A stretch of DNA of 27,217 bases, from the IMG/VR virus record IMGVR_UViG_3300046011_002526, positions 1-27,217 of that record; one strand, written 5' to 3'. Positions 1,937 through 19,185 of this stretch are shown here, piece by piece. Under the pieces are notes generated by a model. That model did not search any database and was not told the origin of the DNA. It worked only from the letters and a program-made list of their open reading frames with translations. The translations under genes and the position numbers were made by a program. The stretch's first letter is position 1; each line of letters begins with the position of its first letter. This DNA comes from a virus.

Positions 1937-2211
1937 TTTTGCTCCTTTAGTTGTCGGACTAGATCTTTTATATCTTTATTTTTCATGCCACCCCATACTC
2001 CATACACTGGCCAATGCTTGATTGCATAACCTAAGCAATTCATTTGCACTGGACAGTTCTTGCATATACTTAAAGCTGCTCTTTGTTCTAAATTCGTTGG
2101 ATGTTCACTATCAGGAAAGAACCAATCAGGATCTATGCTTGGATCAGTGCAATTGGCATTTTTAGTCCATTCTGCTGCTTCAACCTTAAAATCTAAATCT
2201 CTAATCGTCAC
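1933..2211 (-). CDS. WhiB-family iron-sulfur regulator
   Basis: With the GTG start at 2211 (GTGA overlap with the upstream nuclease gene) the protein has 92 residues, the usual WhiB size; a start at 2271 would overlap that gene by 64 bases. The four Fe-S cysteines fall at about 21, 50, 53 and 59 (NCTDP...CKNCPVQMNC), followed by the GVWGG turn at 71-75 and a basic tail, as in all WhiB proteins. WhiB proteins are restricted to Actinobacteria and their phages, and bind the principal sigma factor to alter transcription. The phage TM4 homologue interferes with septation and superinfection. This gene is the strongest host clue in the window. Confidence 0.92.
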   Translation of the reverse strand: MTIRDLDFKVEAAEWTKNANCTDPSIDPDWFFPDSEHPTNLEQRAALSICKNCPVQMNCLGYAIKHWPVYGVWGGMKNKDIKDLVRQLKEQK

Positions 2212-2546
2212 AAGTATCCCGCTTCTTTCAGTAGTTGTATCATTACGCTTACTGGAACACAAGCTGGCCAATTTTCTATATCAGCTTCGCCTTGTCCATT
2301 CTGTCTTAAGACAGCGATGGGGATAACGCCTTCTTTAATTCTTTTTGCTTGTTGTTTCATTGCTGATTTAGGATCGAAGTCTGCTCTAGCCTTCAATTCC
2401 CAATCAACTCCGATAACTCCTTTTATATCTGTGCCTGCAGCTGAAGAACTACTTGCTTCAGCATAAACCCAACCTTCTCGTTTAAGGTATTCAGCAAAGA
2501 TCAATTCAGTCTCTCGACCTCTACGTTTTCTAGATAGGTTTGTCAT
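2208..2546 (-). CDS. PD-(D/E)XK nuclease, Holliday-junction-resolvase-like
   Basis: 112 residues from the ATG at 2546, chosen because GGGAGG sits 6 bases upstream and the ATG overlaps the previous stop (ATGA); another ATG 15 bases earlier lacks this. The catalytic core is visible: GRETELIFAEYL (Glu near 12), the GTDIKG turn with Asp about 40, and WELKAR giving the E-x-K at 50-52. This layout matches the small archaeal-Hjc/VRR-type nucleases that many actinophages encode next to replication genes, where they resolve branched DNA or trim flaps. The fold is clear; the exact substrate is not. Confidence 0.8.
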   Translation of the reverse strand: MTNLSRKRRGRETELIFAEYLKREGWVYAEASSSSAAGTDIKGVIGVDWELKARADFDPKSAMKQQAKRIKEGVIPIAVLRQNGQGEADIENWPACVPVSVMIQLLKEAGYL

Positions 2547-3323: not shown

Positions 3324-3447
3324 GGCGTTTTCCTTTCTGCTTTGCTTTACAATCAATGCAAAAATGAGGATTACCCATAAGTTTATCTAAAGCATAGAGA
3401 TAAGTCCATGCTCCGCATGCTTCACATCTAGCAACTGGCTCAGTCAT
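3313..3447 (-). CDS. 44-residue zinc-ribbon protein
   Basis: A very short gene beginning MTEPVARCEACGAW and containing CxxC at 8-11 and CIDC near 30-33, with a basic tail KQKGKRRVA. Four cysteines in two CxxC pairs predict one zinc ribbon. It overlaps the end of the thymidylate-synthase-like gene by 8 bases and the following GTG start by 11 bases, the same coupling used elsewhere in this operon. The function is unknown; such mini zinc ribbons are common in actinophage early operons. The clean fit between two genes and the paired cysteines are the main support. Confidence 0.65.
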   Translation of the reverse strand: MTEPVARCEACGAWTYLYALDKLMGNPHFCIDCKAKQKGKRRVA

Positions 3448-4249
3448 TGATTTTACCTGCCAAGAATCTTTCAAAGCGAGTTAAATGATCCGGAATGTTG
3501 CCTTTTAGTATAGATCTAGCAGTGTGACTGATCTCGCCAATTGTATTTCCAGTCCACATTGGTTCGTAATCCTTAAATGAGCCATTAAAATATGCCTTAA
3601 TCCATTGAGCTTGTGGAATGTGTTCATCGTAAATGTGTAAACTACCTACAACATGTACATATTGACCCATTTCAACATCTAAAGCTTTGGCAATTGCACC
3701 TTGTAATGCAATAAATTGAGTCAGGTCATATGGAAGACCTAAAAATACGTCATTGCTTCTCATGTTTGTTCTAGCAATTAACTTATTGTCTCTGATGAAG
3801 TACTGTAGGTTTAATGTACAAGGAACATCTTTTACATCAACATTTAGATCTTTATTTGAGTCAAATATAGTCAAAACTGCTTGTCTTGTAGAGTAATCTT
3901 TCTTTAATTGATCTACAACCTTATTGAGATTACCGTGAATGCGTGGACCATAAGCACCATGAAGTATTCCATTATCCATGTACTTTCCAAACACTTGACT
4001 GGTATCTGTCATTGCTTCTGGATCAGTAACTTGTCCAACAAGTTGTAATGCTTCTTTAATACCAATATTATGGTTAAGTTTACGGTTTTCCATAGATACA
4101 GGTATGTTCCATGGCTTTTCAACTTGTAAAGTGACGTTAAGCAGCTCTCTAGTGACCATACCACGAGGAGATATTGCTTCACCATGCTCAATTACATATT
4201 GAGTTGCTAACTCTAAAGCTTCGCTTGGATTTTCTGTAATTATATGCAT
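3440..4249 (-). CDS. Thymidylate-synthase-fold enzyme, predicted dCMP hydroxymethylase
   Basis: 269 residues with the thymidylate-synthase fold: HGAYGPRIHG (97-106), STRQAVLTIFD with phosphate-binding Arg 122, the nucleophile Cys 144 in DVPCTLNLQ, RSNDVFLGLPYDL (164-176), and GSLHIYDEH (202-210). In thymidylate synthase the loop reads LGLPFN, and that Asn (E. coli N177) selects dUMP. Here the position is Asp 175. Asp there is the known determinant for dCMP in T4 hydroxymethylase and in TS mutants. I therefore predict that it adds hydroxymethyl (or methyl) to dCMP using folate, acting on free nucleotides before replication. It heads a cassette with a kinase and PLP, glycosylase-like and SGNH-like genes. 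Substrate choice is inferred from one residue; plain thymidylate synthesis is the alternative. Confidence 0.75.
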   Translation of the reverse strand: MHIITENPSEALELATQYVIEHGEAISPRGMVTRELLNVTLQVEKPWNIPVSMENRKLNHNIGIKEALQLVGQVTDPEAMTDTSQVFGKYMDNGILHGAYGPRIHGNLNKVVDQLKKDYSTRQAVLTIFDSNKDLNVDVKDVPCTLNLQYFIRDNKLIARTNMRSNDVFLGLPYDLTQFIALQGAIAKALDVEMGQYVHVVGSLHIYDEHIPQAQWIKAYFNGSFKDYEPMWTGNTIGEISHTARSILKGNIPDHLTRFERFLAGKIND

Positions 4250-4692
4250 TACCTGACCACCTCACTATGGATTATTGTTTTGTCTAAATATTTTACTTGT
4301 CTAAAAGCTTCTACAAATAAAGATCTTGAATGTAGAACAAAATCGATCTCTAGTTCTTCACCTCGTCTTAACAATTCTTCAGCTATCGCATCTTCTGATC
4401 TTGTTAATAGGATTAACCTAGCTCCTAGTTTAGCAAGTTCCCAATTGCAATAATCAAATGTTGTTTCATCAAACAATGATACTCTTCCATAGATCTTTGG
4501 CCATACAACTTCACCTAAATGCCATCGATCTAATACCATGTTGTTAGAAGTTAACGGTCGAATGTATTCATCGGACCATAACCTTGTTCTAGGTTGTTGA
4601 GCATGTAAATATTGTGCATTGTATCGTTCAGTTAACTTTTGAGCGTAAGTTGTTTTACCTGTTCCATCAGAACCTTCGATGATTGTAATCAT
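4249..4692 (-). CDS. Deoxynucleoside monophosphate kinase-like P-loop protein
   Basis: 147 residues with a Walker A at 7-15 (GSDGTGKTT), the DRWHLGE segment at 55-61 in the position of the thymidylate-kinase DR motif, and a C-terminal lid-like stretch LLRRGEELEIDF. Family knowledge: phage members phosphorylate dNMPs, including modified ones, to feed the replisome. Directly following the predicted hydroxymethylase (single-base overlap, TAATG type), it is well placed to lift a 5-substituted dNMP to the diphosphate. A kinase acting on hydroxymethyl bases already in DNA is possible, but the helical domain usual for those enzymes is absent. Confidence 0.75.
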   Translation of the reverse strand: MITIIEGSDGTGKTTYAQKLTERYNAQYLHAQQPRTRLWSDEYIRPLTSNNMVLDRWHLGEVVWPKIYGRVSLFDETTFDYCNWELAKLGARLILLTRSEDAIAEELLRRGEELEIDFVLHSRSLFVEAFRQVKYLDKTIIHSEVVR

Positions 4693-5576
4693 CTAATTTC
4701 ACCCCATTCTCTGAAACTATCAACTTGTGAATGGTCCATTATAACTGGTTTTACGTCACCTGCCACATTCCACAATAAAGTTGAAGGTGTTTTAGGAGCA
4801 GATGTTTTGTCCAACATAAATCTTTCTAGACCTTTGCAATCATATGTTGGTGCGGAGTTAATTTCCTCATTGATCTTGTCTGCATACTCAGCTTTTTCTC
4901 TGAAAGCTTTATGGTAAGTTGTAACGTCCGCTCTTCCGATCTCTCCTGGATGTAGGTTTCTTGCAACTGCAATTCCGTGGAAGGTTGCATTTGGCCAAGC
5001 AATTTGGAGAGTTCTCGTGAGAACTCCTGTACTAATAACTGATACAACATCTCTTGGTTCATCTCGGTCTCCCCATTGTTGGATTGTAGATTTGACTCCA
5101 GCCGCAACAACTAGGGGATGATCTAAACCAAATGGCACAAATTGAGCATTATTTTGTTCTGCCCAATCTTTGGCATACTTGTTGAGAACTGGCATTGCTG
5201 CAATTCTTCGAAAGATTGGATTTGCTCCTCTTTCAATGCAGACTAATTGATGGTCGCTGACCACTTTTGAGGAAGGCATAAACAATGTTAACTTTTTGTT
5301 ATATTTCTTTGCAAGAGCAGCTAATGAAACTCCTGCCCAGCCGACTCTTGGTTGTACATAAACTAAATGATCTGATTCCATTGTTTTGACCAATAGATCT
5401 CCCCATCGACCTTTTGTGCCAACTCCAGTCACAGAATCATCCCAAATTGTTGCTCCATGAAATGTACCTATATTTGGCGCTTGTGTTTCATCAGTCCAAT
5501 CACCAGCAAGATCTAACCACTGATCTCTATGCCGATGTGAATACTTACTTGACGAATCTGTAGTTATCTTAAACAT
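4689..5576 (-). CDS. PLP fold-type-II enzyme homologue
   Basis: 295 residues related to ACC deaminase, D-cysteine desulfhydrase and cysteine synthase. The candidate PLP lysine is Lys 55 in VGTKGRWGDLL, the counterpart of GGNKxRKLE. RVGWAGVSLAALAKK (77-91) fits the helix that follows the substrate loop; IERGANPIF and FGLDHPLVVAAG follow in family order; STGVLTRTLQIAW (182-194) sits where the PLP-phosphate glycine loop is expected but is less glycine-rich. The strong SD GGAGG is 6 bases before the ATG. Such enzymes do beta-replacement or elimination on amino acids and are rare in phages. Being wedged between a nucleotide kinase and a glycosylase-like protein, it may attach or process an amino-acid-derived group on a DNA base (inference). 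Confidence 0.6.
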   Translation of the reverse strand: MFKITTDSSSKYSHRHRDQWLDLAGDWTDETQAPNIGTFHGATIWDDSVTGVGTKGRWGDLLVKTMESDHLVYVQPRVGWAGVSLAALAKKYNKKLTLFMPSSKVVSDHQLVCIERGANPIFRRIAAMPVLNKYAKDWAEQNNAQFVPFGLDHPLVVAAGVKSTIQQWGDRDEPRDVVSVISTGVLTRTLQIAWPNATFHGIAVARNLHPGEIGRADVTTYHKAFREKAEYADKINEEINSAPTYDCKGLERFMLDKTSAPKTPSTLLWNVAGDVKPVIMDHSQVDSFREWGEIR

Positions 5577-6621
5577 TGTGAGCCTCCAAATGTTTATTGT
5601 AAGTCCAATGTTTTGTGTGATGAGGTATAAGTGATTTGTTTGTCACTTGCCATGGTTTGAGATGTTCATAACCTTTTGGCACATAACATTCAACGTATCG
5701 GACATAATCACAAGCAACATCTTCTAAACTTAGACCTTTACCTAGATTTCTTTCATGGTCACGAGAATCGTACGGTGATCTGAATTCATCACAAATGCGA
5801 TCCATTGCAGCATCTAGAAAGTCTTTTTGCTTATAACCTTCATTCTTGAAGATTAAGTTCAATGCTTGAATAGCATTAGAACCATAGTTAACTCTGCTCC
5901 ATGGATCTATTAAATCAGGAAAATATTGAGCAACGTCCATTACAAATGCAGTCATAACAAAATGAAAGCATTTTAGACCTTGAGCTTTGTGCCATTCATT
6001 TATCCAATCTACTCCATCTCGTATTGACATGGACAAAGGATTGTAACTTAAATGAGTATAAAAATCTTTTACTAGATGAGGCATATACTCTGCTATATAG
6101 AGCTGAGATCCACGAGGATATTGCTCATTTGGCTTTGGAAACTGTGGTATCTGATTACCAATACTAGTAAATATTGGTCTACCAGACTTCATTTGACTCA
6201 ATACAAAGTTTCGCATGTGAATCATGTTATCAGCTTCTAATGCCATATCAGAAAGAATGCTGTTCCTAAATCCATGGTCATATGAAAATGAAGCACCTGA
6301 ACCAGTTACTCGGTGAATCATGAATAAAAACATCCAGTCCATTGGATGTAACTTGTAACTATCAAAGCGCTTATCGATTTGCCATTTTTTAGGATTGTCA
6401 CTGCCATGCCAAATCTGCTGGATAGCATTACTAAATCCAGCAAACTCACGATCTACCGTGTCATAGATTGTGATGTGATGTTGCAACGGATCATCTACGT
6501 GAAGATCTTCAGATGTATCACGACCGTTTTCACTAGCAATGTTAATTGTTTGCAAAACAACAGCCTTCTCGTAATACTTCTTAAAGTCTTCCCAATAAAT
6601 AGTTTCAGTTATTTTAGACAT
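5569..6621 (-). CDS. Putative base-hypermodification protein, glycosylase-derived helical fold
   Basis: 350 residues, almost all helical. Two segments stand out: MDWMFLFMIHRVTGSGASF (94-112) and LKCFHFVMTAFVMDVAQYF (216-234), the latter followed by PDLIDPWSRVNYGSNAIQAL (235-254). The pattern of a helix pair, a short turn, then 'D..S.V.YGSNAI.AL..IF' recalls the conserved core of proteins derived from DNA glycosylases that are predicted to act in phage thymine hypermodification (alpha-glutamyl/putrescinyl-thymine pyrophosphorylase-type clades). This is pattern recognition, not an alignment. It overlaps its neighbours by 8 bases on each side, so the cassette is translationally coupled. If the call is wrong it is simply a conserved phage protein of unknown role. 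Confidence 0.45.
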   Translation of the reverse strand: MSKITETIYWEDFKKYYEKAVVLQTINIASENGRDTSEDLHVDDPLQHHITIYDTVDREFAGFSNAIQQIWHGSDNPKKWQIDKRFDSYKLHPMDWMFLFMIHRVTGSGASFSYDHGFRNSILSDMALEADNMIHMRNFVLSQMKSGRPIFTSIGNQIPQFPKPNEQYPRGSQLYIAEYMPHLVKDFYTHLSYNPLSMSIRDGVDWINEWHKAQGLKCFHFVMTAFVMDVAQYFPDLIDPWSRVNYGSNAIQALNLIFKNEGYKQKDFLDAAMDRICDEFRSPYDSRDHERNLGKGLSLEDVACDYVRYVECYVPKGYEHLKPWQVTNKSLIPHHTKHWTYNKHLEAHNV

Positions 6622-7648
6622 CTAATAACTTCCCTGGATATACTTCAGGAGAAAAGTTTTCATAGTTATTAACTAAATCCCATTCATAAAACTCAGGAGA
6701 TAAATGGACAGACCCAGGTTTTTCCATATAAGTTTTAGCATAATCTTCTGGATCTATCATGTACCAATTTGTTGGCCATTGATGAACATTCTCAAATTGG
6801 TATTTCATTTCATTAGTAATAATGCCCATAAGTCTATCTCGTGTTGTCCAAGATCCATAAAATGGTGTGCCTTTGTAAAATCCAGTTTTAGGTATTTTTC
6901 TTTCTTCGTGCTCAATCGGATATGGAGCAGTTACCTCAAAAGTTCCTATTTTACCGCTTTGTTGTAACCACTCAAGTTGAATCTTAAGTGTTGTAACTAG
7001 TTTTCTAGCTGATCCTTCTGGATCTAATTGGCGGCATAAATGATGACGAATGTCAACGTTGCCGGCATAAATAACTAGATGAGGTACAAAATAGTCAGGC
7101 AAATATGAACTAACTCCTCTTTCAGTTAATCCATGAAGTGTCAAACCATCATGACGATAGACAACGGTGTTTGCTCTATATCTAGAAATTGAATGTGAGT
7201 CACCAATAACTACTCGCTGAATATCTAAAACTAGATCTTCATGCTTAATAACTTCACATTTCATTAGATCACGAATCTTAGTCCATTCTGATTCTGTAAA
7301 ATCAAAATCAGTCTTTGCGGCACGTGGACGTAGAATTCTTTCAATATCACCTATAGGCATATCCAAAGCTTTGATATTTGCAAGATCCATATCTAAAACT
7401 CTGGCAATTCTGTCTCTTGTTTCTCTAGTATAACCACCAAATAGATTAAAGACTTCACCTTTGAACTCCATAGGAGTTGATACTAACCATGTGCCTTCTT
7501 TGACAAGTTGGTCATTGCCAAAAGCAACTTCAGATTTAGTATTAAAAGCATTATCGACCATGCACTTTTGCATTCTCGGCCATGCAGATCTATGACTAGC
7601 AATTCGATCTGTAAATGAGGTAACTACATCATCTAGTATGTATTTCAT
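6614..7648 (-). CDS. SGNH/GDSL-like protein in the modification cassette
   Basis: 344 residues. After about 140 residues of unassigned N-terminus, residues 146-152 read VVIGDSH, the block I Gly-Asp-Ser of SGNH hydrolases. Next come a glycine in LHGLTERG (171-178) and YAGNVDIRHHL (194-204), matching the 'GxIDxRxH' block III of SGNH proteins found in sugar-modification loci. A convincing block V Asp-x-x-His is not evident, so catalysis is uncertain. SGNH enzymes hydrolyse or transfer acyl groups. Within a run of base-modification candidates it might act on a decorated base or serve as a transferase-like subunit (inference). It is coupled to the MazG-like gene upstream by an ATGA-type overlap. 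Confidence 0.5.
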   Translation of the reverse strand: MKYILDDVVTSFTDRIASHRSAWPRMQKCMVDNAFNTKSEVAFGNDQLVKEGTWLVSTPMEFKGEVFNLFGGYTRETRDRIARVLDMDLANIKALDMPIGDIERILRPRAAKTDFDFTESEWTKIRDLMKCEVIKHEDLVLDIQRVVIGDSHSISRYRANTVVYRHDGLTLHGLTERGVSSYLPDYFVPHLVIYAGNVDIRHHLCRQLDPEGSARKLVTTLKIQLEWLQQSGKIGTFEVTAPYPIEHEERKIPKTGFYKGTPFYGSWTTRDRLMGIITNEMKYQFENVHQWPTNWYMIDPEDYAKTYMEKPGSVHLSPEFYEWDLVNNYENFSPEVYPGKLLDV

Positions 7649-10127: not shown

Positions 10128-10568
10128 TTATGCCTTTCGTTTTAGTTGAGTTGGTACTAGTTCATTGCATTTTGAGTTGACTGCCCAATGTGTCCAACCG
10201 GACCAATGGTATTTTGCATTCAACGCTGCTACAAATCCTACATCTTGGTAGATAGGTTCCCATTGATCTATGGACTTTGATTGCAGGTGTTTCACCAGCT
10301 TCTTAGTCTTAGACTTCGGCATTCCATAATCTACTAATCTGTTTGCAACCATAAAAGATAAACCATGTCGCCATTGCTTATCTAAGAATTGCCATCGTCC
10401 TCTGGCTGAAGACTGATCTCCTACTGCTTTGTAGTTACCTCTAGATTCATGATGGCTTACACATTTTGCGTAAGCAACCTGATCTTTTGGAACTCTTGCT
10501 GCTGCTGTTTTATAGTCCACCGCATTCGCATTTGGTGATACTAATAAAAAGGCTACAGCGATTGCCAT
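10128..10568 (-). CDS. Secreted lysozyme/transglycosylase-like protein
   Basis: 146 residues. Residues 3-16 form a hydrophobic stretch ending in ANA, a signal-peptide-like cleavage site. It is followed by CVSHHESRGNYKAVG (36-50), with Glu 41 in the place of the catalytic Glu of soluble transglycosylase/Rpf-type domains, and SSARGRWQFLDKQWR (53-67), the usual G.wQf.. motif. It would cleave cell-wall glycan. Its site in the early operon, far from the CHAP endolysin and holins, is odd. The annotated N-terminus lacks the positive charges a signal peptide needs; a CTG 9 bases upstream, or a frameshift in the preceding 17-codon frame, would supply basic residues. Confidence 0.65.
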   Translation of the reverse strand: MAIAVAFLLVSPNANAVDYKTAAARVPKDQVAYAKCVSHHESRGNYKAVGDQSSARGRWQFLDKQWRHGLSFMVANRLVDYGMPKSKTKKLVKHLQSKSIDQWEPIYQDVGFVAALNAKYHWSGWTHWAVNSKCNELVPTQLKRKA

Positions 10569-10573
10569 GACCT

Positions 10574-10627
10574 TCAGACATCGTTCCTCTGACGGCGGAC
10601 AGATACAGCATAAATAAACACAAACAT
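10574..10627 (-). CDS. Possible 17-codon leader peptide
   Basis: AGGAGG, the best-looking ribosome site in this stretch, lies 5 bases before an ATG that opens a frame of only 17 codons (MFVFIYAVSVRRQRNDV), stopping 5 bases before the lysozyme-like ATG. It may be a translated leader that couples ribosomes into the lysozyme gene. Alternatively it is the real N-terminus of that protein, separated by a one- or two-base shift: its RRQR would make a sensible signal-peptide n-region in front of the hydrophobic stretch. Confidence 0.35.
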   Translation of the reverse strand: MFVFIYAVSVRRQRNDV

Positions 10628-10652
10628 AGTTGCCTCCTAGTCGTTGTGTTAG

Positions 10653-10835
10653 TTAGCTTTTGGTTCCATTCATCAATGCATCTAATGCATCTTGATAAAC
10701 GTAACGTAAGTTCGAAGGTGTTTTGTAACCTTCAACTTTTCCAAGATCAACCCAACGTCGTACTGTTCGTGAGTTGCGTCCAATGAGCTTTGCGGCTTGC
10801 CCTGTTGTTAGGGACTTTCTACTTTCATTTGTCAT
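10653..10835 (-). CDS. Excisionase/MerR-type HTH DNA-binding protein
   Basis: 60 residues from the ATG at 10835, chosen because AGGA lies 7 bases upstream; the ATG 6 bases earlier is too close to it. LTTGQAAKLIGRNSRTVRRWVDLGKVEGYKTPSNLRYVYQDAL is the HTH_17/excisionase winged-helix domain over nearly the full length. Such proteins bind DNA as excisionases or as small regulators. No integrase is visible, so a transcriptional role is more likely. A candidate promoter lies directly upstream (10901-10929), and the TGTCCG/CGGACA inverted repeat at 10851-10901 in its leader might be its own operator (inference). Confidence 0.8.
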   Translation of the reverse strand: MTNESRKSLTTGQAAKLIGRNSRTVRRWVDLGKVEGYKTPSNLRYVYQDALDALMNGTKS

Positions 10836-10900
10836 ATGCATATCCTAAACTGTCCGTAGTGACCATGCGACCATTGCCGCGCAGTGTTTTATCAGCGGAC

Positions 10901-10929
10901 ATAACATAAATCTATTTTATGCTATACAA
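10901..10929 (-). promoter_or_regulatory. Candidate leftward promoter
   Basis: On the minus strand, TTGTAT (-35 like) and TGTTAT (-10 like) are separated by exactly 17 bases, with each box matching consensus at four of six positions. A start near 10894 would give a leader of about 60 bases before the HTH gene. The pair follows the hairpin at 10938-10975, where the previous transcript could end. Confidence 0.35.
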
Positions 10930-10937
10930 TCCGCTAG

Positions 10938-10975
10938 CGATTAACCGGTTTACCTGGCGGTTCTCCGGTTAATCG
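10938..10975 (-). terminator. Perfect 11-bp inverted repeat over a stop codon
   Basis: CGATTAACCGG (10938-10948) and CCGGTTAATCG (10965-10975) are exact complements with a 16-base loop. The right arm contains the stop codon of the small membrane-protein gene. There is no T-run after it, so it is not a standard intrinsic terminator; a protein-binding site or mRNA-end hairpin is possible. The loop carries AACCGCCAGG in minus orientation, the same core that precedes four start codons in this region. Confidence 0.45.
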
Positions 10976-11157
10976 TCCAACATACATTCAACCATAGTTC
11001 CCCAGCAATAACCACCATCCGTCCACCATAGATTCATGGACACTTGCCAAATTGCCCACAAACCAATTAAGATGAATATTGCTCTAACTCGTTTGCCACG
11101 TTTAGTTAGTTTCATTACTAGTCTCCTTAGTTTGTTGACAAGAACAGACTTCGACAT
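10969..11157 (-). CDS. Small single-pass membrane protein
   Basis: 62 residues from the ATG at 11157, which has AGGAGG 6 bases upstream. A later ATG at 11115 also has a strong SD (AAGGAG, 7 bases), so two starts may be used. A basic N-terminus (KLTKRGKRVR) is followed by one hydrophobic helix (AIFILIGLWAIWQVSMNLWW) and a short outer tail with three cysteines or acidic residues (YCWGTMVECMLDD). The charge pattern predicts the N-terminus inside. The function is unknown; phage early operons often carry such proteins, some acting in superinfection exclusion. Confidence 0.6.
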   Translation of the reverse strand: MSKSVLVNKLRRLVMKLTKRGKRVRAIFILIGLWAIWQVSMNLWWTDGGYCWGTMVECMLDD

Positions 11158-11207
11158 CATATTCCTCCTGATAAGAGTGATAGATATATCCTTTTCCATA
11201 ACATAGA

Positions 11208-11366
11208 TTACAAGTCATTGGATTCATCCAAATCCCAAGCAATCTCAGAGTTTATGCATATTGGAACAACACAAACCCATCGCGGCATTCCACTGTATGC
11301 TCTACTAGAAAGCATGACATCAGATCCACATGCGGCACACTTTAATCTTCCTGTTTTTACGGTCAT
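11208..11366 (-). CDS. 52-residue zinc-ribbon protein
   Basis: Starts at the ATG at 11366, which forms an ATGA overlap with the previous stop and has GGAG 6 bases upstream. MTVKTGRLKCAACGSDV gives a CxxC pair at 10-13, and WVCVVPIC gives a second pair further on. The protein probably folds around one zinc. No family is recognised. It lies between the papain-like gene and the membrane-protein gene in the early leftward operon. Confidence 0.6.
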   Translation of the reverse strand: MTVKTGRLKCAACGSDVMLSSRAYSGMPRWVCVVPICINSEIAWDLDESNDL

Positions 11367-11788
11367 GGCAATCTCCAATATCCATAGACACATCTAGTTT
11401 CATTTCTTGACGGATCATGAGTGTCATATATGACACCGTCAATTACCGCCACAACATGTTTTGAGACATTGGCGATGATTCGTCCGTTAGGTAACTCATC
11501 TGCTTTGAGATGGACTTTGCAACCTGAACCAATAGTCATAGTTGGTATCCATTTAAAGCCAAGATCTTTCATGATCTTTTTAGTCGTATTGTTTCTGATA
11601 CCAGTACGACTAGATGACTTTGTGCGCTTTTTTGACTTACGTTCAAAACCTACATACTTATTTACATAGTCATAGATTTCTTGATACGGCCGATCTGTAG
11701 CAATGCAGATGGCACGGACGACACAGTCTGAAGCAGATCCTTTATAACCTGCTGCAGCTCGTCCACCATCATTAAATTGAACTTCCAT
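11363..11788 (-). CDS. Papain-like-fold cysteine protease homologue
   Basis: 141 residues starting MEVQFNDGGRAAAGYKG. The segment SASDCVVRAICIATDRPYQEIYDYV (18-42) places a cysteine at the start of a helix, as in papain-like and C39-like peptidases. SKHVVAVIDGVIYDTHDPS (108-126) then supplies the His and a likely Asp. This small family is spread over phages and bacteria; the 'DCVVRAIAIAT' signature is its hallmark. Catalytic activity and target are not established. The start has the AACCGCCAGGAGG leader shared with other genes of this region. Confidence 0.65.
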   Translation of the reverse strand: MEVQFNDGGRAAAGYKGSASDCVVRAICIATDRPYQEIYDYVNKYVGFERKSKKRTKSSSRTGIRNNTTKKIMKDLGFKWIPTMTIGSGCKVHLKADELPNGRIIANVSKHVVAVIDGVIYDTHDPSRNETRCVYGYWRLP

Positions 11789-11820
11789 TTTTCCTCCTGG
11801 CGGTTAGTGGTACTGGACCA

Positions 11821-11973
11821 TTATACACTGCGGACTTTTTGAGTCGAAAGTTTTTTATGCAATTCAGCACAATTTGTGCATATACTCGCAATGAAACGCT
11901 GACCGTTGTCATATTGATACCAACGATTTTGCATATTGTTGGTTTCCCAACCACACATGTGGCAAACTTTCAT
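11821..11973 (-). CDS. 50-residue CxxC-CxxC protein
   Basis: The gene runs from an ATG that overlaps the previous stop (ATGA), with GAGG 8 bases upstream. It reads MKVCHMCGWETNN at the start and SICTNCAELHKKL toward the end. The two CxxC pairs frame about 27 residues, the spacing of a treble-clef or rubredoxin-like zinc site. Its role is unknown. The coupling to the upstream small gene and the paired cysteines make it a real gene in my view. Confidence 0.6.
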   Translation of the reverse strand: MKVCHMCGWETNNMQNRWYQYDNGQRFIASICTNCAELHKKLSTQKVRSV

Positions 11974-12146
11974 GATTCAGATCCTCTCATAAGTCTACCC
12001 CATACTGCAAGCATTTCAATTTCTGATTCGAAACGTCCATCAGCTTTTGCGCGGTCAATAATTTCATTGACGCTAGATAGTTCAGGATAATCTGAACGAA
12101 GTTTTGCAGCAAACTGAGTTGCCCATTCTTTAGTTAAGTGAGTCAT
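11970..12146 (-). CDS. 58-residue helical protein of unknown function
   Basis: An unbroken frame starting at the ATG that shares one base with the preceding stop (TAATG) and ending in an ATGA overlap with the next gene. It reads MTHLTKEWATQFAAKLRSD at the start and EIEMLAVWGRLMRGSES at the end: amphipathic, charged, with no cysteines and no membrane segment. No family is recognised. The tight overlaps at both ends support it as the second gene of the early leftward operon. Confidence 0.6.
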   Translation of the reverse strand: MTHLTKEWATQFAAKLRSDYPELSSVNEIIDRAKADGRFESEIEMLAVWGRLMRGSES

Positions 12147-12361
12147 TACTTCATCTCCTTTGATGTTGCAACTGCAATTTCCATCAAAAGATCATCAGCA
12201 AATTGTTTTTCTTCTTTTGTCCATGTTAAATAGTACTCGTTATATTCATCTGCAGTAACACTTAGATCTGCATAACCAAGTACTTTCTTTTGTACTTCGA
12301 ATTTACGTGGCAATCCACAAGAATAGTTCCAGCGAATTTGCTCTTTTGACATTGTGTTCAT
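12146..12361 (-). CDS. 71-residue early protein of unknown function
   Basis: The first gene of the leftward early operon, just inside the divergent regulatory region. The start is well defined: AACCGCCAGGAGG followed by seven A residues and ATG. The protein is acidic and helical at the C-terminus (TKEEKQFADDLLMEIAVATSKEMK), with aromatic residues in the middle (YNEYYLTW). Nothing catalytic is visible. First-position early phage genes often modify host functions, but nothing in the sequence shows that here. Confidence 0.65.
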   Translation of the reverse strand: MNTMSKEQIRWNYSCGLPRKFEVQKKVLGYADLSVTADEYNEYYLTWTKEEKQFADDLLMEIAVATSKEMK

Positions 12362-12384
12362 TTTTTTTCCTCCTGGCGGTTAGT

Positions 12385-12400
12385 ATGAGCGGTCGCTCAT
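12385..12400. promoter_or_regulatory. 16-bp operator-like dyad
   Basis: ATGAGCG and CGCTCAT are perfect inverted repeats separated by two bases. The site lies 24 bases upstream of the first leftward early gene, overlapping the likely 5' leader, a position suited to repression. Confidence 0.45.
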
Positions 12401-12472
12401 AGGATCAATATACACTGATTGTGGACATATATCCACCATTTGTGGAAATGTTTCTAAAAGATCTTATTTACT

Positions 12473-12486
12473 AGAACATCTGTTCT
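12473..12486. promoter_or_regulatory. LexA-type SOS box (GAAC-N4-GTTC)
   Basis: AGAACATCTGTTCT is a perfect dyad with a two-base spacer and contains GAACATCTGTTC, matching the GAAC-N4-GTTC core of LexA boxes in Actinobacteria and Bacillus. It lies centrally between the divergent genes, where host LexA could repress one or both directions and DNA damage would release them. Expected chance occurrence of the eight fixed bases is below one per window. Confidence 0.5.
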
Positions 12487-12550
12487 GGCCGGTGGCACAT
12501 AAGTTAACCAGAGCCATCAGGATCCACCAGGACGCGGGTTCATTTGTGGT

Positions 12551-12566
12551 GAGTATAAATATACTC
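12551..12566. promoter_or_regulatory. 16-bp dyad with back-to-back -10-like boxes
   Basis: GAGTATA and TATACTC flank two A residues. TATACT occurs on both strands (12560-12565 on plus, 12557-12552 on minus), so the dyad may hold -10 boxes for both directions or an operator covering one. A rightward start 6-7 bases after the plus box would fall at about 12572, where the foldable element begins. The plus -35 candidate TTCATT (12539-12544) has a short 15-base spacer. Confidence 0.35.
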
Positions 12567-12571
12567 GGATC

Positions 12572-12621
12572 GATATGTCCGTGGTCCTGGGACGAACCTG
12601 GCCGCTCGATCTGGACATATC
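12572..12621 (+). ncRNA. 50-nt structured element in the rightward leader
   Basis: A 9-bp perfect stem GATATGTCC (12572-12580) with GGACATATC (12613-12621) encloses a second 6-bp stem GUGGUC (12581-12586) with GGCCGC (12600-12605) that includes two G-U pairs, and a short GGG/CCU stem with loop ACGAA. The wobble pairs form only in plus-strand RNA, favouring a rightward transcript. It may be a 5' stabiliser, a regulatory leader or a protein site. It does not match a known class by eye. Confidence 0.4.
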
Positions 12622-12747
12622 AAGATCTAAAATGTTCCAAAAGGATCTAAAAAGATCTTTTCCAATGAAGTGTACAAAGGACGGTGGACAGTATTGAATG
12701 TACCTATGAGCAACCAACCGGTTGCCATAAACCGCCAGGAGTAAAAA

Positions 12748-12930
12748 ATGGGAATAGCAATCGGAACTACAATCACAGTTACATTCGATGCAAAGCAAAT
12801 CGCACAACTTGATTGTGTATTGCAAGAGTTTGAAATGAAAAACTACATGCAAGAAACTGAACACCAAAAAATTAACGTTGAGCGTGTAAATAATATTTTC
12901 AAAGCTTTACACGAAGCAGGATATCGCTAA
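12748..12930 (+). CDS. 60-residue protein upstream of the ribozyme
   Basis: Rightward gene with start leader AACCGCCAGGAG and a six-base spacer to ATG. The protein begins with a beta-like stretch MGIAIGTTITVTFDAKQIAQL and continues as a helix-rich charged tail with VERVNNIFKALHEAGYR. No cysteines, membrane segment or known motif are seen. It is the first gene of the only rightward unit. Its stop codon is followed without a gap by the hammerhead ribozyme, so its mRNA would acquire a defined 3' end about 26 nt past the stop if the ribozyme cuts. Confidence 0.7.
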   Translation: MGIAIGTTITVTFDAKQIAQLDCVLQEFEMKNYMQETEHQKINVERVNNIFKALHEAGYR

Positions 12931-12985
12931 GGACGAAACACTCCGTAAGGAGTGTCCAGTGTTAAATGACACTGCTGATGAGTCC
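12931..12985 (+). ncRNA. Type II hammerhead ribozyme
   Basis: All universally conserved hammerhead elements are present in order, with the ends in stem II. Stem II 5' strand GGAC (12931-12934); core GAAA (12935-12938; its last A pairs with U12955); stem III ACACUCC (12938-12944) with GGAGUGU (12949-12955) closed by a GUAA tetraloop; H17 is C12956, so cleavage is predicted between 12956 and 12957; stem I CAGUG (12957-12961) with CACUG (12970-12974) and an 8-nt loop; core CUGAUGA (12975-12981); stem II 3' strand GUCC (12982-12985). Stem II is only 4 bp. Hammerheads are known from bacterial and phage genomes. Cleavage would separate the 60-residue gene from the DUF932 gene. Confidence 0.93.
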
Positions 12986-13012
12986 ATCAGAATAAATCGC
13001 CAGGAGGAAAAA

Positions 13013-13981
13013 ATGTCAGTACAAATCCAAAACGCAGCACGTCGCAAGGCACCATGGATCAGCACAGCAACATGGGTAAATTCAAGTGACGAGCAAATCT
13101 CTGCAGCTCAAGTTCTTGAGAATGCAAATCTTGATTGGGAAGTTCAACACACTCCACTTTCAACTACAGCAATTAACAATGACGGTGTGACAGTCGTTAA
13201 ACTCGAAGACAAAGTTGCTACAACTCGTGTGAATAAGGACGGATCAGCTTCTGTTCTAGGTATCACTTCTCCTACATATACAATTGTCCAGAACAACGAC
13301 ATTGTCAACATTGTGGATTCTGTTATGTACGAAGCCGGTGCAATTTATCAGTCAGCTGGTGAACTACGCGGTGGCAAGAAGATCTTCATGGCTGCAAAGC
13401 TTCCAGACACTTTAGATCTTACTCTTAAGAATATCGATCCAATCGAATCCTTCTTAGTTGCTTCAAACACTCACGATGGAACAGATTCACTTCGCTTTGA
13501 AATCAAGTATCTTCGCTTGATCTGCACAAACGGAATGACACGTTGGACTAATGCTTCTTCTATCTCTTTCCGCCACTCAGCTCGTATGAGTGTCAAGATC
13601 GAAGATGTTCGTGAGACTCTAGGAGTTGTTCTTAAGTCAAATCAAGAGTTTAACCTTCTATCTTCTGCTCTTCTCGAGAAGAAAGTTGCTAACTCTGACT
13701 TCTGGTCAATTGTCAAAGATGTTCTTCCACTAGATGAAAACAACATGACTGAGCGTCAACAGAACAATGTTCGTGAGCGTCAGCAGACTCTTCTAGGTAT
13801 CTGGAACGGACCAACTCAGGAGAACATCAAAGGAACTGCATGGGGAATTGTTAATGCTTTTACAGAGTACGAACAATGGACCCGCACAACTCGTTCAGCT
13901 AATGATTTTGCGGCTGGTGAGCGATTCATGATGAATCAAGGAACATCTCTTTCAGATCGAGTCTTGGAGATGGTTCGCTAA
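13013..13981 (+). CDS. DUF932 phage/plasmid-like protein
   Basis: 322 residues from the ATG at 13013, chosen because CCAGGAGG lies 5 bases upstream; an upstream GTG at 12959 falls inside the ribozyme. The sequence has DUF932 (phage/plasmid-like protein) features: the N-terminal RRKAPWISTATW, the central FEIKYLRLICTNGMTRW (about 167-183), then FRHSARMSVKIEDVRETLG, and the C-terminal WGIVNAFTEYEQWTRTTR. DUF932 proteins are widespread on plasmids and phages without proven function; a link to DNA metabolism is suspected. It is the only large gene on the plus strand, so it is expressed separately from all others. Its mRNA would begin with a 5'-hydroxyl and a 56-nt leader after ribozyme cleavage. 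Confidence 0.88.
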   Translation: MSVQIQNAARRKAPWISTATWVNSSDEQISAAQVLENANLDWEVQHTPLSTTAINNDGVTVVKLEDKVATTRVNKDGSASVLGITSPTYTIVQNNDIVNIVDSVMYEAGAIYQSAGELRGGKKIFMAAKLPDTLDLTLKNIDPIESFLVASNTHDGTDSLRFEIKYLRLICTNGMTRWTNASSISFRHSARMSVKIEDVRETLGVVLKSNQEFNLLSSALLEKKVANSDFWSIVKDVLPLDENNMTERQQNNVRERQQTLLGIWNGPTQENIKGTAWGIVNAFTEYEQWTRTTRSANDFAAGERFMMNQGTSLSDRVLEMVR

Positions 13982-13996
13982 GACAAAAAGAAAAAG

Positions 13997-14027
13997 GCCC
14001 CTGCCGAAAGGCAGGGGCTTCTTTTTT
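13997..14027. terminator. Bidirectional intrinsic terminator
   Basis: GCCCCTGCC (13997-14005), GAAA loop, GGCAGGGGC (14010-14018), then TTCTTTTTT. The left flank is A-rich (AAAAAGAAAAAG), giving a U-run on the opposite strand as well. It lies between the convergent ends of the DUF932 and proteasome-like genes and serves both. Confidence 0.92.
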
Positions 14028-14033
14028 GCTATT

Positions 14034-14630
14034 TTAATCTAAGAATGCAATGTGATTCTTTCCAGCTTTTGTTTGTAATGCTACTTGTACTTGTCCACCA
14101 CTATTGATATCGAATCGGATTGCAGTTTTAACCGCTTGTTCTAAGATCTCAATTGCATCTTCGTATTCATCTACTTCGTCAATTCCTAGCGCGTGAGCAG
14201 CTCCAAGAGCAAGTTTGGCACCTGTTCCTGTGGTGTAGACCTTATCTTTTGTCTTTTCTAGTCCATACACTTCATCGATAAAGTAGATAGTTCCATTGAC
14301 TGCAACTATGAAATCATTCTCAAAAGATGATGGATAGCCTTCAGATTTGATGTCATAACCTGAGATTCCAAATGTTTTACGTAGATTTGGCACAAACTGA
14401 GTGACCATAAACTTGTCTAGATTCTTTGCTCTAGGAGGAGCTGGTGGATTAAAAGCATGTTGGATCAGATTCATGCCTCGGACTAAACCTGCAGCAGAAA
14501 CTAAATACTTGCCATTCTCTGCAATTTTGCCCATAGGAGAACAATCAGCTCGCATGTCATAACCGGTTGTTTGAGTATCTGCGGCAATGATGCAATAGTC
14601 ATCATGCTGAAATGCAATGAGTGTTGTCAT
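14034..14630 (-). CDS. Proteasome beta/HslV-like Ntn hydrolase
   Basis: 198 residues. After removal of Met the chain starts TTLIAF, exposing the Thr nucleophile. Asp 17 (IIAADTQTT), Lys 34 (MGKIAENG; Lys 33 in the family) and Gly 47 (SAAGLVRG) match the catalytic set of proteasome beta subunits and HslV. The C-terminal part has AIRFDINSGGQVQVALQ, the conserved D...SGG of the family. There is no propeptide, so maturation needs only methionine removal, as in HslV. A self-assembling protease ring is plausible, perhaps with host ATPases. It is the last gene of the late leftward unit, coupled to the DUF6378-like gene. SD GGAGG is present. Confidence 0.82.
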   Translation of the reverse strand: MTTLIAFQHDDYCIIAADTQTTGYDMRADCSPMGKIAENGKYLVSAAGLVRGMNLIQHAFNPPAPPRAKNLDKFMVTQFVPNLRKTFGISGYDIKSEGYPSSFENDFIVAVNGTIYFIDEVYGLEKTKDKVYTTGTGAKLALGAAHALGIDEVDEYEDAIEILEQAVKTAIRFDINSGGQVQVALQTKAGKNHIAFLD

Positions 14631-14896
14631 TTTTCCTCCGTAGCCAGTTCTCCGCCAATAGCCATATAAGCTGCTCCATCAATCCAACCATCTAATTTCT
14701 CAGGTGATTGAACTAGTCTAGCAACCTTTACTTGATTCATGCATAAAGCAACTTGCCAAGGTTCTACGGTAATGCCTAAAACTACACTCCAAAGCTTTGC
14801 AATGCGGTCATGGTTTTCTTGTGGAGTTCCATAATCTGCTTGCCTGTCGTTATAAATTAAACGTGTTGCTTCATCTAAGATCTCTTTGCGATTCAT
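14627..14896 (-). CDS. DUF6378-like phage protein
   Basis: 89 residues from the ATG at 14896, which overlaps the upstream stop (TAATG). The pattern RLIYNDRQADYGTPQENHDRIAKLW...VALCMNQVKVARL...LDGWIDGAAYMAIGGELA matches a small helical family common in phages, with conserved R..YG..N, LW, K.aR and D..GY positions. Function is unproven; its all-helical pattern has been compared with MazG-type nucleotide hydrolases. It is coupled to the metallophosphoesterase upstream and the proteasome-like gene downstream. Confidence 0.75.
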   Translation of the reverse strand: MNRKEILDEATRLIYNDRQADYGTPQENHDRIAKLWSVVLGITVEPWQVALCMNQVKVARLVQSPEKLDGWIDGAAYMAIGGELATEEK

Positions 14897-15945
14897 TAGT
14901 CTAGCCAAACTTGATAACAAGCAGTGACACGACCTCGTTCGGGATCAATGAAGTGGAGTCTTTGAGAAGGAACACCTGAGGCGGCCATAGAGTCGCGCGC
15001 GTACCTATTATCGGACTCTGTTGAACCGGTCCAATATACTGATCCAAGACCATCTGAAAGCGGTTCTTGTGCATGACGATGGTAATGACCCAAGTATATG
15101 TCTTGAAAGTTCCAGTCGTAAGCTCCAGCTTTCCATCTGTTTCCTGCTGCTTGCCATCCGGCCGGAGAAGCAAAACCAGATCTACCAACTTCATCGCCAT
15201 GCATAAGAAGAGCTCGATAATTGCCGATCTCAATGCGCTGAATATCTTCAACACCATGGCGTGGATCCCATGTCAGTCTTTTAGCAGTCGCTTCTTCAGA
15301 ACATAATAACTGACGAGCCAACTCATAACACATACGGTCAAAATTATCAGACTTCGGTACGTCCGCTCTTTTGTTTCCGATTCGGCCATGATTTCCCCAT
15401 TCTGCAATAACAGTTACATGATGGTAAACTGCTAATGCTTGTCGTACAACATCTACTATTAAACGGCTAACTGTTATGTATTGGTCGTATAAACTAAGAT
15501 CTATTTCCCATAGTTGAGCAGGATAGTTAAAAAGACCTTCGACCATATCTCCGCCAAAGCAAATTACTGCATCATTCACTGGATGATCTTGTCTTTGTAT
15601 TTCGGTAATTTTTGTTGCTTTAGTTGTAAAGTCCATAACTCTAGTTCTCATGATTTCTGAGTTATAACTAGGAGTTACTTTTGCTCCTTGCCAATCAGTA
15701 AGATGCCATAAAGCAACTTCTGCTCTTTTGCGGCGTTTATCTACCTTTGGACCTTCAATTGGCTTCATTGGTCCTAAAGCCAAAGTTGCATCTTTACATG
15801 CTTGGATTGTGGCTTCTACTAATTCTTCTGTACGTTGTTTTGCTTTGGACAATTCTTTTTGTGTCCGTACAAGAGTCTGACGAAGTTCTGAAACTGATTC
15901 GTCTACTTCTAGTTGCAGTTTCTTGGCGTCGTCAGATAAAGTCAT
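14896..15945 (-). CDS. Calcineurin-like metallophosphoesterase
   Basis: 349 residues. Residues 1-70 form a charged coiled-coil leader. The metal-binding motifs follow: LTDWQG (82-87) in place of the usual DxH, CFGGDMVEG (129-137), EWGNHGRIG (182-190), LMHGDEVG (247-254) and LGHYHRH (285-291). The first motif has Gln where His is standard, a variation that may alter metal 1 binding; the other four are intact. Related phage proteins are predicted DNA or nucleotide phosphoesterases of the SbcD/Mre11 superfamily. It lies between lysis genes and the proteasome-like gene, coupled by an ATGA overlap. Confidence 0.82.
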   Translation of the reverse strand: MTLSDDAKKLQLEVDESVSELRQTLVRTQKELSKAKQRTEELVEATIQACKDATLALGPMKPIEGPKVDKRRKRAEVALWHLTDWQGAKVTPSYNSEIMRTRVMDFTTKATKITEIQRQDHPVNDAVICFGGDMVEGLFNYPAQLWEIDLSLYDQYITVSRLIVDVVRQALAVYHHVTVIAEWGNHGRIGNKRADVPKSDNFDRMCYELARQLLCSEEATAKRLTWDPRHGVEDIQRIEIGNYRALLMHGDEVGRSGFASPAGWQAAGNRWKAGAYDWNFQDIYLGHYHRHAQEPLSDGLGSVYWTGSTESDNRYARDSMAASGVPSQRLHFIDPERGRVTACYQVWLD

Positions 15946-16193
15946 GGGGTCCTAAAACACGGGCATTGTTTTTTGCGATGGACTGTAAGTGCAGTATTTC
16001 CTAGTTGAAAACCATGCGCTCTTAGTAAATTAACAATTTGCAGAATAGTAACTTTAGATTGGATTAAGTTTTCTAAAGCATCTGAATCAGATGGCAATAG
16101 TTGAGATTTAATTTTGCCAACCACACAGAGTGGTTTACTTTGTTCGTTCAAAAGATCATTTATAGCTTTTGATAAGTCCCCCGAACTCATCAT
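15942..16193 (-). CDS. Small HTH-like protein preceding the phosphoesterase
   Basis: 83 residues. The start shares a base with the holin stop (TAATG), with AGGAAG 6 bases upstream. ALENLIQSKVTILQIVNLLRAHGFQLGNTALTVHRKKQC resembles a simple DNA-binding HTH (helix, turn, recognition helix, basic end). The C-terminus is short with two cysteines (CPCFRTP). Proteins of this type precede the metallophosphoesterase in other actinophages in my experience; their role is unknown. Confidence 0.6.
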   Translation of the reverse strand: MMSSGDLSKAINDLLNEQSKPLCVVGKIKSQLLPSDSDALENLIQSKVTILQIVNLLRAHGFQLGNTALTVHRKKQCPCFRTP

Positions 16194-16387
16194 TACTTAC
16201 TTCCTAATCCGTATTCTTTTTCTTTTGGATCAAGTGACTTAACAATTGGAGCAATAATAGATCCAAGTAGTACTGCATATTCAGGGCGCATATCTGCTGC
16301 GATTGCAAGAATTACGGTAATACCAGATGCTGCGACTGCTCTTAAATAAGATTTAATTGCTGCTTTATGCTTCGGTTTGAGTTTCAT
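16193..16387 (-). CDS. Small holin-like membrane protein
   Basis: 64 residues with AAGGAG 5 bases before the ATG. A basic N-terminus (MKLKPKHKAAIKSY) precedes one or two hydrophobic helices (VAASGITVILAIAA; YAVLLGSIIAPIV) and a charged tail SLDPKEKEYGLGSK. This size, charge pattern and place directly after the endolysin are typical of actinophage holins, which form pores to release the endolysin. A second membrane protein lies on the other side of the endolysin, so either may be the holin and the other an antiholin or accessory. Confidence 0.65.
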   Translation of the reverse strand: MKLKPKHKAAIKSYLRAVAASGITVILAIAADMRPEYAVLLGSIIAPIVKSLDPKEKEYGLGSK

Positions 16388-16396
16388 AACACTCCT

Positions 16397-16864
16397 TTAG
16401 TTCTTTGGACGTGCAATTGCCATAATTGTATCGTATTTTCTGCGTTTTAGATAGAACCCGTCACCATTAGATTGGCTACCGGCTTTATTGTCCGACGTAT
16501 TACCTTCCCATACATTTACGTATTTTAAGGTTGTATTGTGATACTGGACAATTCCTACATGGTCTGGTTGAGCATCTGTATCAAACTGGAAGAATACAAG
16601 ATCTCCACGTTTTGCTTGACCAATTGGTACTAACTGATTGCTTTTTGTTAAATACTTAAGCCATTCATCACAAGAAGCATAGCCTTTTGGTTTGCTTTTT
16701 GGTGCAACTTTGCTTAATAAACCTGCTTCATGATAAACTTTTGATGCTGCCATTGCACACCACGGTTGGTTATTAAGTCCATACCACTTGCCAAAAACTG
16801 TATCGTTGTTCTTGCCTTCGGTATAACCGATATAACTATCTGCTATTTCTTTTAGGTTTTTCAC
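16397..16864 (-). CDS. CHAP-domain endolysin
   Basis: 155 residues from a GTG with AGGGG 5 bases upstream. It is a single-domain CHAP amidase/endopeptidase: catalytic Cys 36 in NNQPWCAMAASKV, His 102 in QPDHVGIVQ, and a third residue Glu 120/Asn 122 in WEGNTSD. It would cut peptide cross-links or amide bonds of peptidoglycan. No separate cell-wall-binding domain is present, making it among the smaller endolysins. There is no signal peptide, which fits holin-dependent release. Confidence 0.88.
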   Translation of the reverse strand: MKNLKEIADSYIGYTEGKNNDTVFGKWYGLNNQPWCAMAASKVYHEAGLLSKVAPKSKPKGYASCDEWLKYLTKSNQLVPIGQAKRGDLVFFQFDTDAQPDHVGIVQYHNTTLKYVNVWEGNTSDNKAGSQSNGDGFYLKRRKYDTIMAIARPKN

Positions 16865-17063
16865 TTTTACCCCTATCAGTTAGCATTGTTATTACTAACT
16901 CCATTTGTGTTTCTAATCTAGTTACAGAGTCTTTAAGACTAGATCCGCCATTTGGCTTTAATTCATTTAGGAAATGTTTAACTAGCCACCTTACGGCCAC
17001 TACAAACGAACCTAGTATCGATATGACCGCAAGTATTAACGCAGCCCAGTCATTCACAGTCAT
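16836..17063 (-). CDS. Holin-like protein with one TM helix and coiled coil
   Basis: 75 residues: hydrophobic helix WAALILAVISILGSFVVAV (6-24), basic WLVKHFLNELK, then a short coiled coil SLKDSVTRLETQMELVITML and a basic tail. This matches the single-TM actinophage holin type (DUF2746-like). AAGGAG lies 5 bases before the ATG. Its end overlaps the endolysin start by 29 bases, so both are co-translated. Confidence 0.65.
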   Translation of the reverse strand: MTVNDWAALILAVISILGSFVVAVRWLVKHFLNELKPNGGSSLKDSVTRLETQMELVITMLTDRGKSEKPKRNSR

Positions 17064-17196
17064 TCTTCTCCTTGAGTTTTGCTTCGAGATCCCCCACTCT
17101 AGCTGTCAACATTGCTTTGTCCAGAGCTAGCAGACCAATCTGCTCTCTTAGTACAGCAATAACAACATTGATGTCTAGTTCTGTTTTTTCGTCCAT
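17050..17196 (-). CDS. 48-residue coiled-coil protein
   Basis: Frame starting at an ATG with AAGGGG 7 bases upstream, overlapping the previous stop (TAATG) and ending 14 bases into the holin-like gene. The protein is a single charged helix: LDINVVIAVLREQIGLLALDKAML, then VGDLEAKLKEKND. Small coiled-coil proteins before the lysis genes are common in actinophages. The function is unknown. Confidence 0.6.
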   Translation of the reverse strand: MDEKTELDINVVIAVLREQIGLLALDKAMLTARVGDLEAKLKEKNDCE

Positions 17197-17343
17197 TAGT
17201 CGTCCCCTTGTTTTGTTAATTTAACTAATATAATATTTAAGTCAGGATGAAGTGGTTGTGCTTTTATTTTAGCTTCATCTTTATCAATTGCCGTAATAGG
17301 TTCTAATATAAGAATACCATCATTATTAAATCCAACTGCATAA

Positions 17344-17351
<8 letters not shown>
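17196..17351 (-). CDS. 51-residue protein after the tail fibre
   Basis: Starts 8 bases inside the end of the fibre gene (ATGAATAG overlap) and ends in TAATG with the next gene. It reads MNSYAVGFNNDGILILEPI, then KIKAQPLHPDLNIILVKLTKQGDD. The likely fold is two beta strands, then a helix and a strand. A role as a small fibre-associated factor or fibre chaperone is possible from position alone. Not a recognised family. Confidence 0.55.

Positions 17352-19185
<1,834 letters not shown>

Follow-up and report, generated by a model that had tools for sequence, protein, structure and literature searches.

The window analysed here, a whole virus record of 27,217 bases (~40% GC), possesses a LexA-like dyad (AGAACATCTGTTCT) in the control region between two divergent transcription units. 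This dyad is conserved in related phages, its core motif is found in front of the lexA genes of candidate hosts, and neither a phage repressor nor a tyrosine integrase was detected. The dyad may well be an operator for the LexA protein of the host, in a phage-type variant with A/T instead of C/G outside GAAC-N4-GTTC; the predicted binding has, in our judgement, an even chance of being real. Phages that infect freshwater actinobacteria with small genomes are abundant but little understood, also as regards their ability to persist quietly in the cell. A conserved LexA-like operator in a phage without recognisable repressor or integrase would link DNA damage of the host (e.g., by sunlight) to phage expression in a testable way.

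The record belongs to a tailed phage with terminase, portal and capsid genes. Its left half is a leftward operon encoding a replication initiator, SSB, RusA, a WhiB protein, a thymidylate synthase homologue, dUTPase, dCMP deaminase, a RecT-like protein and an exonuclease; there are also several small early ORFs without any family match. The right half comprises the late genes, which are leftward as well. Between the halves lies a rightward island consisting of a small ORF, a hammerhead-type RNA and a DUF932 gene, ended by a hairpin terminator. A relative of 37,204 bases (G003, locus L016) starts at nearly the same place and continues via prohead protease, portal, fibre genes and terminase; its glycine-rich, fibre-like protein matched no phage record. 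The features used below are the following.

1077-1565: replication initiator gene.
1933-2271, minus strand: WhiB-family protein, marker of an actinobacterial host (family match).
10653-10841, minus strand: HTH_17 (excisionase/MerR-like) protein of 62 amino acids, a candidate phage-encoded binder (family match).
12146-12361, minus strand: first gene of the leftward early operon, 71 amino acids, no assigned function (ORF and family search).
12407-12435, minus strand: leftward promoter-like site P1, TGGATA-17-TATATT, conserved (promoter search).
12473-12486, no strand: LexA-like dyad, candidate operator, conserved (sequence reading and motif scan).
12552-12581, minus strand: second leftward promoter-like site P2, CGGACA-18-TATACT, upstream of the box, weak (promoter search).
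12671-12699, plus strand: rightward promoter-like site, TGTACA-17-TTGAAT, before the cargo gene (reading by eye).
12748-12930, plus strand: ORF of 60 amino acids, variable slot of the rightward transcript (ORF list and comparison with relatives).
12931-12996, plus strand: predicted type II hammerhead ribozyme (Rfam, covariation and folding).
13013-13981, plus strand: DUF932 gene, 322 amino acids (family match).
13995-14020, both strands: terminator-like hairpin.

The initial annotation, made from the sequence alone, had described the box as an exact GAAC-N4-GTTC and a perfect dyad. The exact motif at this position was confirmed, and it is the sole zero-mismatch match (GAACNNNNGTTC) in the 27,217 bases; the symmetry holds for the arms (AGAACA/TGTTCT), but not for the central TC. 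The box lies inside the 386 bases separating the first leftward gene (ATG at 12361) from the first rightward ORF (12748). Its distance to this ATG is 112 bases, as annotated, and the nearest -10-like hexamers, one on each side (12407-12412 and 12552-12557), are ~61-66 bases off (about 65-80 in the annotation). The frequency of the motif says little. An exact 12-mer of this kind is expected ~0.4 times per 27 kb by arithmetic (27,217/4^8), which makes a single match unremarkable genome-wide and would suit a chance origin, and at the two-mismatch level the window does not exceed its shuffles (103 matches vs. a mean of 106). Within the 386-base control region, by contrast, the match is remarkable, since the exact motif arises in just 13 of 2000 dinucleotide shuffles of this region. 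The decisive support for the box is its conservation, not its frequency.

A search with the DUF932 protein returned 40 viral loci, 33 of which were scanned upstream, the other seven (L033, L035, L040-L044) being cut at the contig end. After omission of L036 (45 bases upstream), 32 readable regions were left, and 30 of them contain the exact box; in L016 and L034, one half-site has a G to A change and the box is otherwise present. Four further distant loci were retrieved with an alignment query (L248, L251, L252, L253). Three of these four have the exact motif, with L251 and L252 identical upstream and sharing one region, and the box of L248 has one change. Altogether, exact copies are present in 33 of 36 readable upstream regions, usually as one copy per genome (one in the window, one exact in G007, none exact in G003, whose box in L016 differs by one base). 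Another kin contig, L339, has CCAGAACATTTGTTCTGG. The damaged half-sites of L016, L034 and L248 (AAAAC or GTTTT) resemble what operator mutants might have.

Seven representatives with 60-100% identity in the neighbouring DUF932 protein (the window, L034, L037, L038, L248, L251, L253) were aligned on the box without gaps. The mean pair identity is 0.94 over the ten half-site positions vs. 0.34 in the flanks, and the box is the best of 91 placements for half-site identity. Its arms are close to invariant and its centre is variable; in L253 the box is kept in an otherwise different control region. The box is a true phylogenetic footprint, and fixed arms around a free centre are the evolutionary pattern of an operator for a dimeric protein. 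Conservation in relatives, which the initial annotation had proposed as a check, was borne out, and it is of the operator type expected for a host LexA (SOS) operator. A chance match without function is barely credible, as the box is kept amid deeply diverged flanks; the seven-sequence footprint contradicts a chance origin.

To judge by its genes, the phage infects an actinobacterium, since it carries a WhiB gene and its capsid, exonuclease and DUF932 proteins have relatives in actinophages. All 57 records matching the capsid are Mycobacterium phages, and the relatives of the exonuclease and the DUF932 protein are mostly actinophages. Window positions 10500-17500 gave no DNA match among phage records, and no relative of the DUF932 protein was found in the genome collection. 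Tetranucleotide correlation with candidate hosts is weak (best value 0.47, with 0.43 for a genome of 66% GC) and does not fix the host genus. The absence of an evident repressor or integrase, remarked on in the initial annotation, was upheld for the two families searched: the tyrosine integrase family PF00589 was matched in 0 of 11 records and the HTH_3 repressor family PF01381 in 0 of 8. With both unmatched, a lysogeny module of the lambda CI/integrase type was rejected. There is no match to the LexA domain PF01726 within the 27-kb window.

LexA itself is widespread in candidate hosts, with matches in 385 of 394 genomes of the class. We sampled 32 small genomes (1.2-1.5 Mb) of this class and then the whole family of one of them, G168; in this candidate host family, which we take to be Nanopelagicales on grounds of genome size and GC, LexA was found in 102 of 121 genomes. 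Among 54 lexA loci, 36 were readable by the box pattern and 18 were not. As 35 of these 36 loci of small-genome actinobacteria have an exact GAAC-N4-GTTC upstream, mostly in the form GAACA-NN-TGTTC, the phage core matches the host LexA box at the sequence level. The next inner base is A in 39 of 48 host half-sites, as in the phages, and the lexA box of G168 (TTCGAACATCTGTTCTAT) has 13 consecutive bases in common with the phage box (GAACATCTGTTCT). Furthermore, MGAACANNTGTTCK is present in 60 of 61 host-family genomes, usually at 2-5 sites vs. 0-2 for the control, and CGAAC...GTTCG boxes precede recA in G168 (L282) and a DnaE-type polymerase gene in G138 (L281). The core GAACA-NN-TGTTC is thus common to the phage and to actinobacterial SOS boxes (lexA, recA and dnaE2 promoters).

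The difference lies in the outer positions. Host boxes prefer C/G next to the core (35 of 48 half-sites, with A/T in 12) and T/A beyond, whereas every intact phage copy has A/T next to the core on both sides, often with C/G beyond. In Streptomyces venezuelae, the LexA motif is tCGAAC-N4-GNNCGa (PMC9380542); the phage box has the inverted repeat GAAC-N4-GTTC of an actinobacterial LexA operator, but not the outer consensus TCGAAC...GTTCGA. Because of these outer positions, a matrix scan with actinobacterial LexA boxes, also proposed in the initial annotation, went against its reading: with the full 18-base host matrix, the window box scores 9.5, under all 22 host boxes (15.0-27.8), and this value is reached by 211 of 500 shuffled windows. 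The boxes of L251 and L253 reach 17.9 with the same matrix. Nor does the host family show enrichment of the A/T-flanked form AGAACANNTGTTCT: its 121 genomes have 6 sites, vs. 7 for the reversed control, and five of the six are inside ORFs. The sixth, TTAGAACAAATGTTCTAA (L221 in G442), is the one case of the phage-type form before a host DnaE2-like gene: it precedes an operon with a PHP/DNA_pol3_alpha protein, a DnaE2-like gene of SOS type, and the A/T-flanked box may for this reason serve an SOS promoter in the host family. At the level of the phylum, AGAACANNTGTTCT occurs in 29 of 396 genomes with no clear enrichment; some of these sites, perhaps in members of other classes, precede a helicase gene. 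Dyads of the type TAGAACANNTGTTCT were seen in high-GC members of the phylum (L322, L323, L325, L327, L328), those of L325, L327 and L328 lying close to where a helicase-like gene starts (Pfam search for L325 only). From the proposal that the site is a LexA operator, there thus remains a conserved dyad in a divergent control region with a core like that of host lexA-promoter boxes; a fit to the full host matrix and enrichment of the A/T form in the host family do not.

The A/T-flanked form is found in other viruses as well. In the viral collection, TTAGAACANNTGTTCTAA occurs in 64 stretches vs. 22 for the reversed control; 46 of the 64 are outside ORFs (of at least 100 amino acids) and 17 have a WhiB-like gene in the fetched stretch, compared with 0 of 22 on both counts for the control. 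For the host-type TTCGAACANNTGTTCGAA, among the matches listed, 43 of 80 are outside ORFs and 1 of 80 has a WhiB-like gene. Grouping of the 64 stretches with tblastx resulted in one group of 27 (26 outside ORFs), which was built by single linkage and could comprise several families, one of 6 (all outside ORFs), and smaller ones, of which some coding-only groups look like chance. By eye, the box stands straight after TATAAT in L341 and after TTGACA in L383, where a repressor would sit. In the WhiB-encoding viral contigs L340, L342 and L369, the A/T-flanked dyad is located where an early gene ends; in L340, this gene is RusA.

The occurrence of the motif in unrelated phages of similar hosts favours a host factor, and the near absence of this form from host genomes favours LexA acting at a phage-type variant of its site over an unknown regulator with a regulon of its own. 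From this sharing and this rarity, we infer LexA rather than another host regulator. More tentatively, several unrelated groups of WhiB-encoding actinophages, this freshwater family without a detected integrase among them, might have independently adopted AGAACA-NN-TGTTCT, with host LexA as a shared early repressor and lysis coupled to DNA damage; we hold this to be possible, but doubtful. If true, the changed bases outside the core would set the affinity lower than for the boxes of the host itself, and DNA damage would be tied to the lysis of bacteria that are among the most abundant in fresh water. The A/T-flanked motif is a simple search key for such phages.

In the control region, three promoter-like sites were found where shuffles give 1.4, and for this reason neither P1 nor P2 is proven. 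P1 is the best of the leftward sites, and its transcript would start near 12400. P2 is weak, its TATA element being conserved to the eye in aligned relatives. The box is situated between P2 and P1 and overlaps neither. The rightward promoter-like site (GTGTACAAA) is invariant in 25 aligned sequences and was missed by the promoter-pattern search. Another dyad, which lies over the -35 element (GTGGACATATATCCAC, ~12421-12436), was considered as the true operator and rejected: distant relatives keep just the TGTACA-like -35, and it was read as promoter. Note also that several genes share a common leader, in which a short hairpin is followed by ACCGCCAGGAGG ahead of the start codon (12363-12402, 12703-12745, 11785-11815).

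With this layout, a LexA dimer would be placed between P2 (upstream) and P1 (downstream). In the undamaged cell, the dimer would halt transcripts being elongated from P2 and reduce the activity of P1; alternatively, it could disturb P1 from upstream. Cleavage of LexA by RecA, after DNA damage or in response to single-stranded phage DNA, would then allow expression of the leftward early operon at full rate, i.e. of the exonuclease, RecT-like protein, dCMP deaminase, dUTPase, thymidylate synthase homologue, SSB, RusA and replication initiator. A LexA dimer that stops polymerase coming from P2 would be comparable to the arrangement in Bacillus thuringiensis phage GIL01, whose dinBox1 sits downstream of its P1 (PMC6182141).

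The same dyad could be the operator of a dimeric regulator encoded by the phage itself (for instance, the 62-amino-acid HTH_17 protein, or some small early protein that went unrecognised) that autoregulates the leftward operon, the likeness to LexA being due to convergence. We regard this as rather unlikely, although the HTH_17 protein is present in all seven other records covering its place, the outer A/T is uniform in the phages, unlike the host preference, and the motif is common to other viral groups. Viral contigs with the motif have no match to the HTH_17 query (E 1e-6), except for the kin of the window, and host LexA boxes have the same inner positions (GAACA-NN-TGTTC); moreover, proteins of the HTH_17/excisionase type usually bind direct repeats. 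Binding of another host regulator, acting as an activator or an architectural protein upstream of P1, is distinctly unlikely in our view. It would agree with a site placed upstream of P1 and not over it, and with the distances between the box centre and the -10 element of P1 (67 bases in the window, L037 and L251, 64 in L253, 76 in L038, 77 in L034, 79 in L248), which form two groups about one helical turn apart (64-67 and 76-79) and resemble class I activator sites. However, independent spacings are few, the -10 assignments are our own, and hardly any intergenic AGAACANNTGTTCT exists in candidate hosts, so that no such regulon is visible.

It is very unlikely that the region serves mainly as a replication origin or packaging signal, with the dyad as one of its protein sites. 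The sequence GATC occurs eight times in the 386 bases (12362-12747), a density ~4-fold that of the remaining window; a count of 8 was reached in 1 of 2000 shuffles. It is also dense in four of five distant relatives (L037, L038, L251, L253; hardly in L248). But the replication initiator gene is located elsewhere (1077-1565), the repeats found are not iteron-like, and two divergent gene starts with promoter-like sites already account for a control region.

For the preferred reading, an operator of host LexA, GIL01 is one of the close comparisons. Like the window, it has a LexA-type dyad near early promoters in its early control region, with host LexA at dinBox1/1b of P1 (PMC4551915). GIL01 is a small tectivirus with several dinBoxes, the helper gp7 and a phage LexA homologue, whereas the window comes from a tailed phage with one exact box, not a series of boxes at early and late promoters, and has no PF01726 match in its 27 kb. 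The Planktophila phages E7 and F5 (genomes of ~39 kb) and the G2 actinophages are freshwater and WhiB-encoding, like the window phage, and the accessible part of their description has no mention of a LexA box (PMC10202952). The Streptomyces tectiviruses WheeHeim and Forthebois are actinobacterial phages that were scanned for LexA sites by their authors, who, in the portion available, did not find any (PMC6950372). No report of a LexA box in a freshwater actinophage was found in the literature as judged by titles and the beginnings of abstracts, a body in which subscription journals are mostly outside the scope.

The rightward island has a predicted ribozyme beside a slot with exchangeable content. 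A search of the window against Rfam gave no match at the gathering score; a laxer search revealed a type II hammerhead before the DUF932 gene (28.6 bits, below the gathering score of 37; E 0.0012). Its core, CTGATGAG, is found 35-39 bases ahead of the DUF932 start in all 33 loci scanned. Across seven distinct hammerhead sequences, there are paired changes in all three stems (e.g., GGAC/GTCC to GAGC/GCTC and CAGTGT/ACACTG to TGACGT/ACGTCA). The fold is stable (z -4.2), and the minimum-energy structure closes stems I and III, but not stem II. Cleavage by the predicted ribozyme would separate the small ORF from the DUF932 gene on the transcript. The ORF at 12748-12930 is exchanged between close relatives (L002, L003, L004). 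The ribozyme core is missing from L248, and so is the small ORF preceding it; the two may therefore travel as a unit, and the slot may be regarded as a cargo slot.

Within the leftward operon, genes for the thymidylate synthase homologue, a thymidylate-kinase-like P-loop protein and a threonine-dehydratase-like protein follow each other in a row (3440-7648), beside those for dUTPase and dCMP deaminase. This arrangement is reminiscent of the thymidine hypermodification pathways of other phages.
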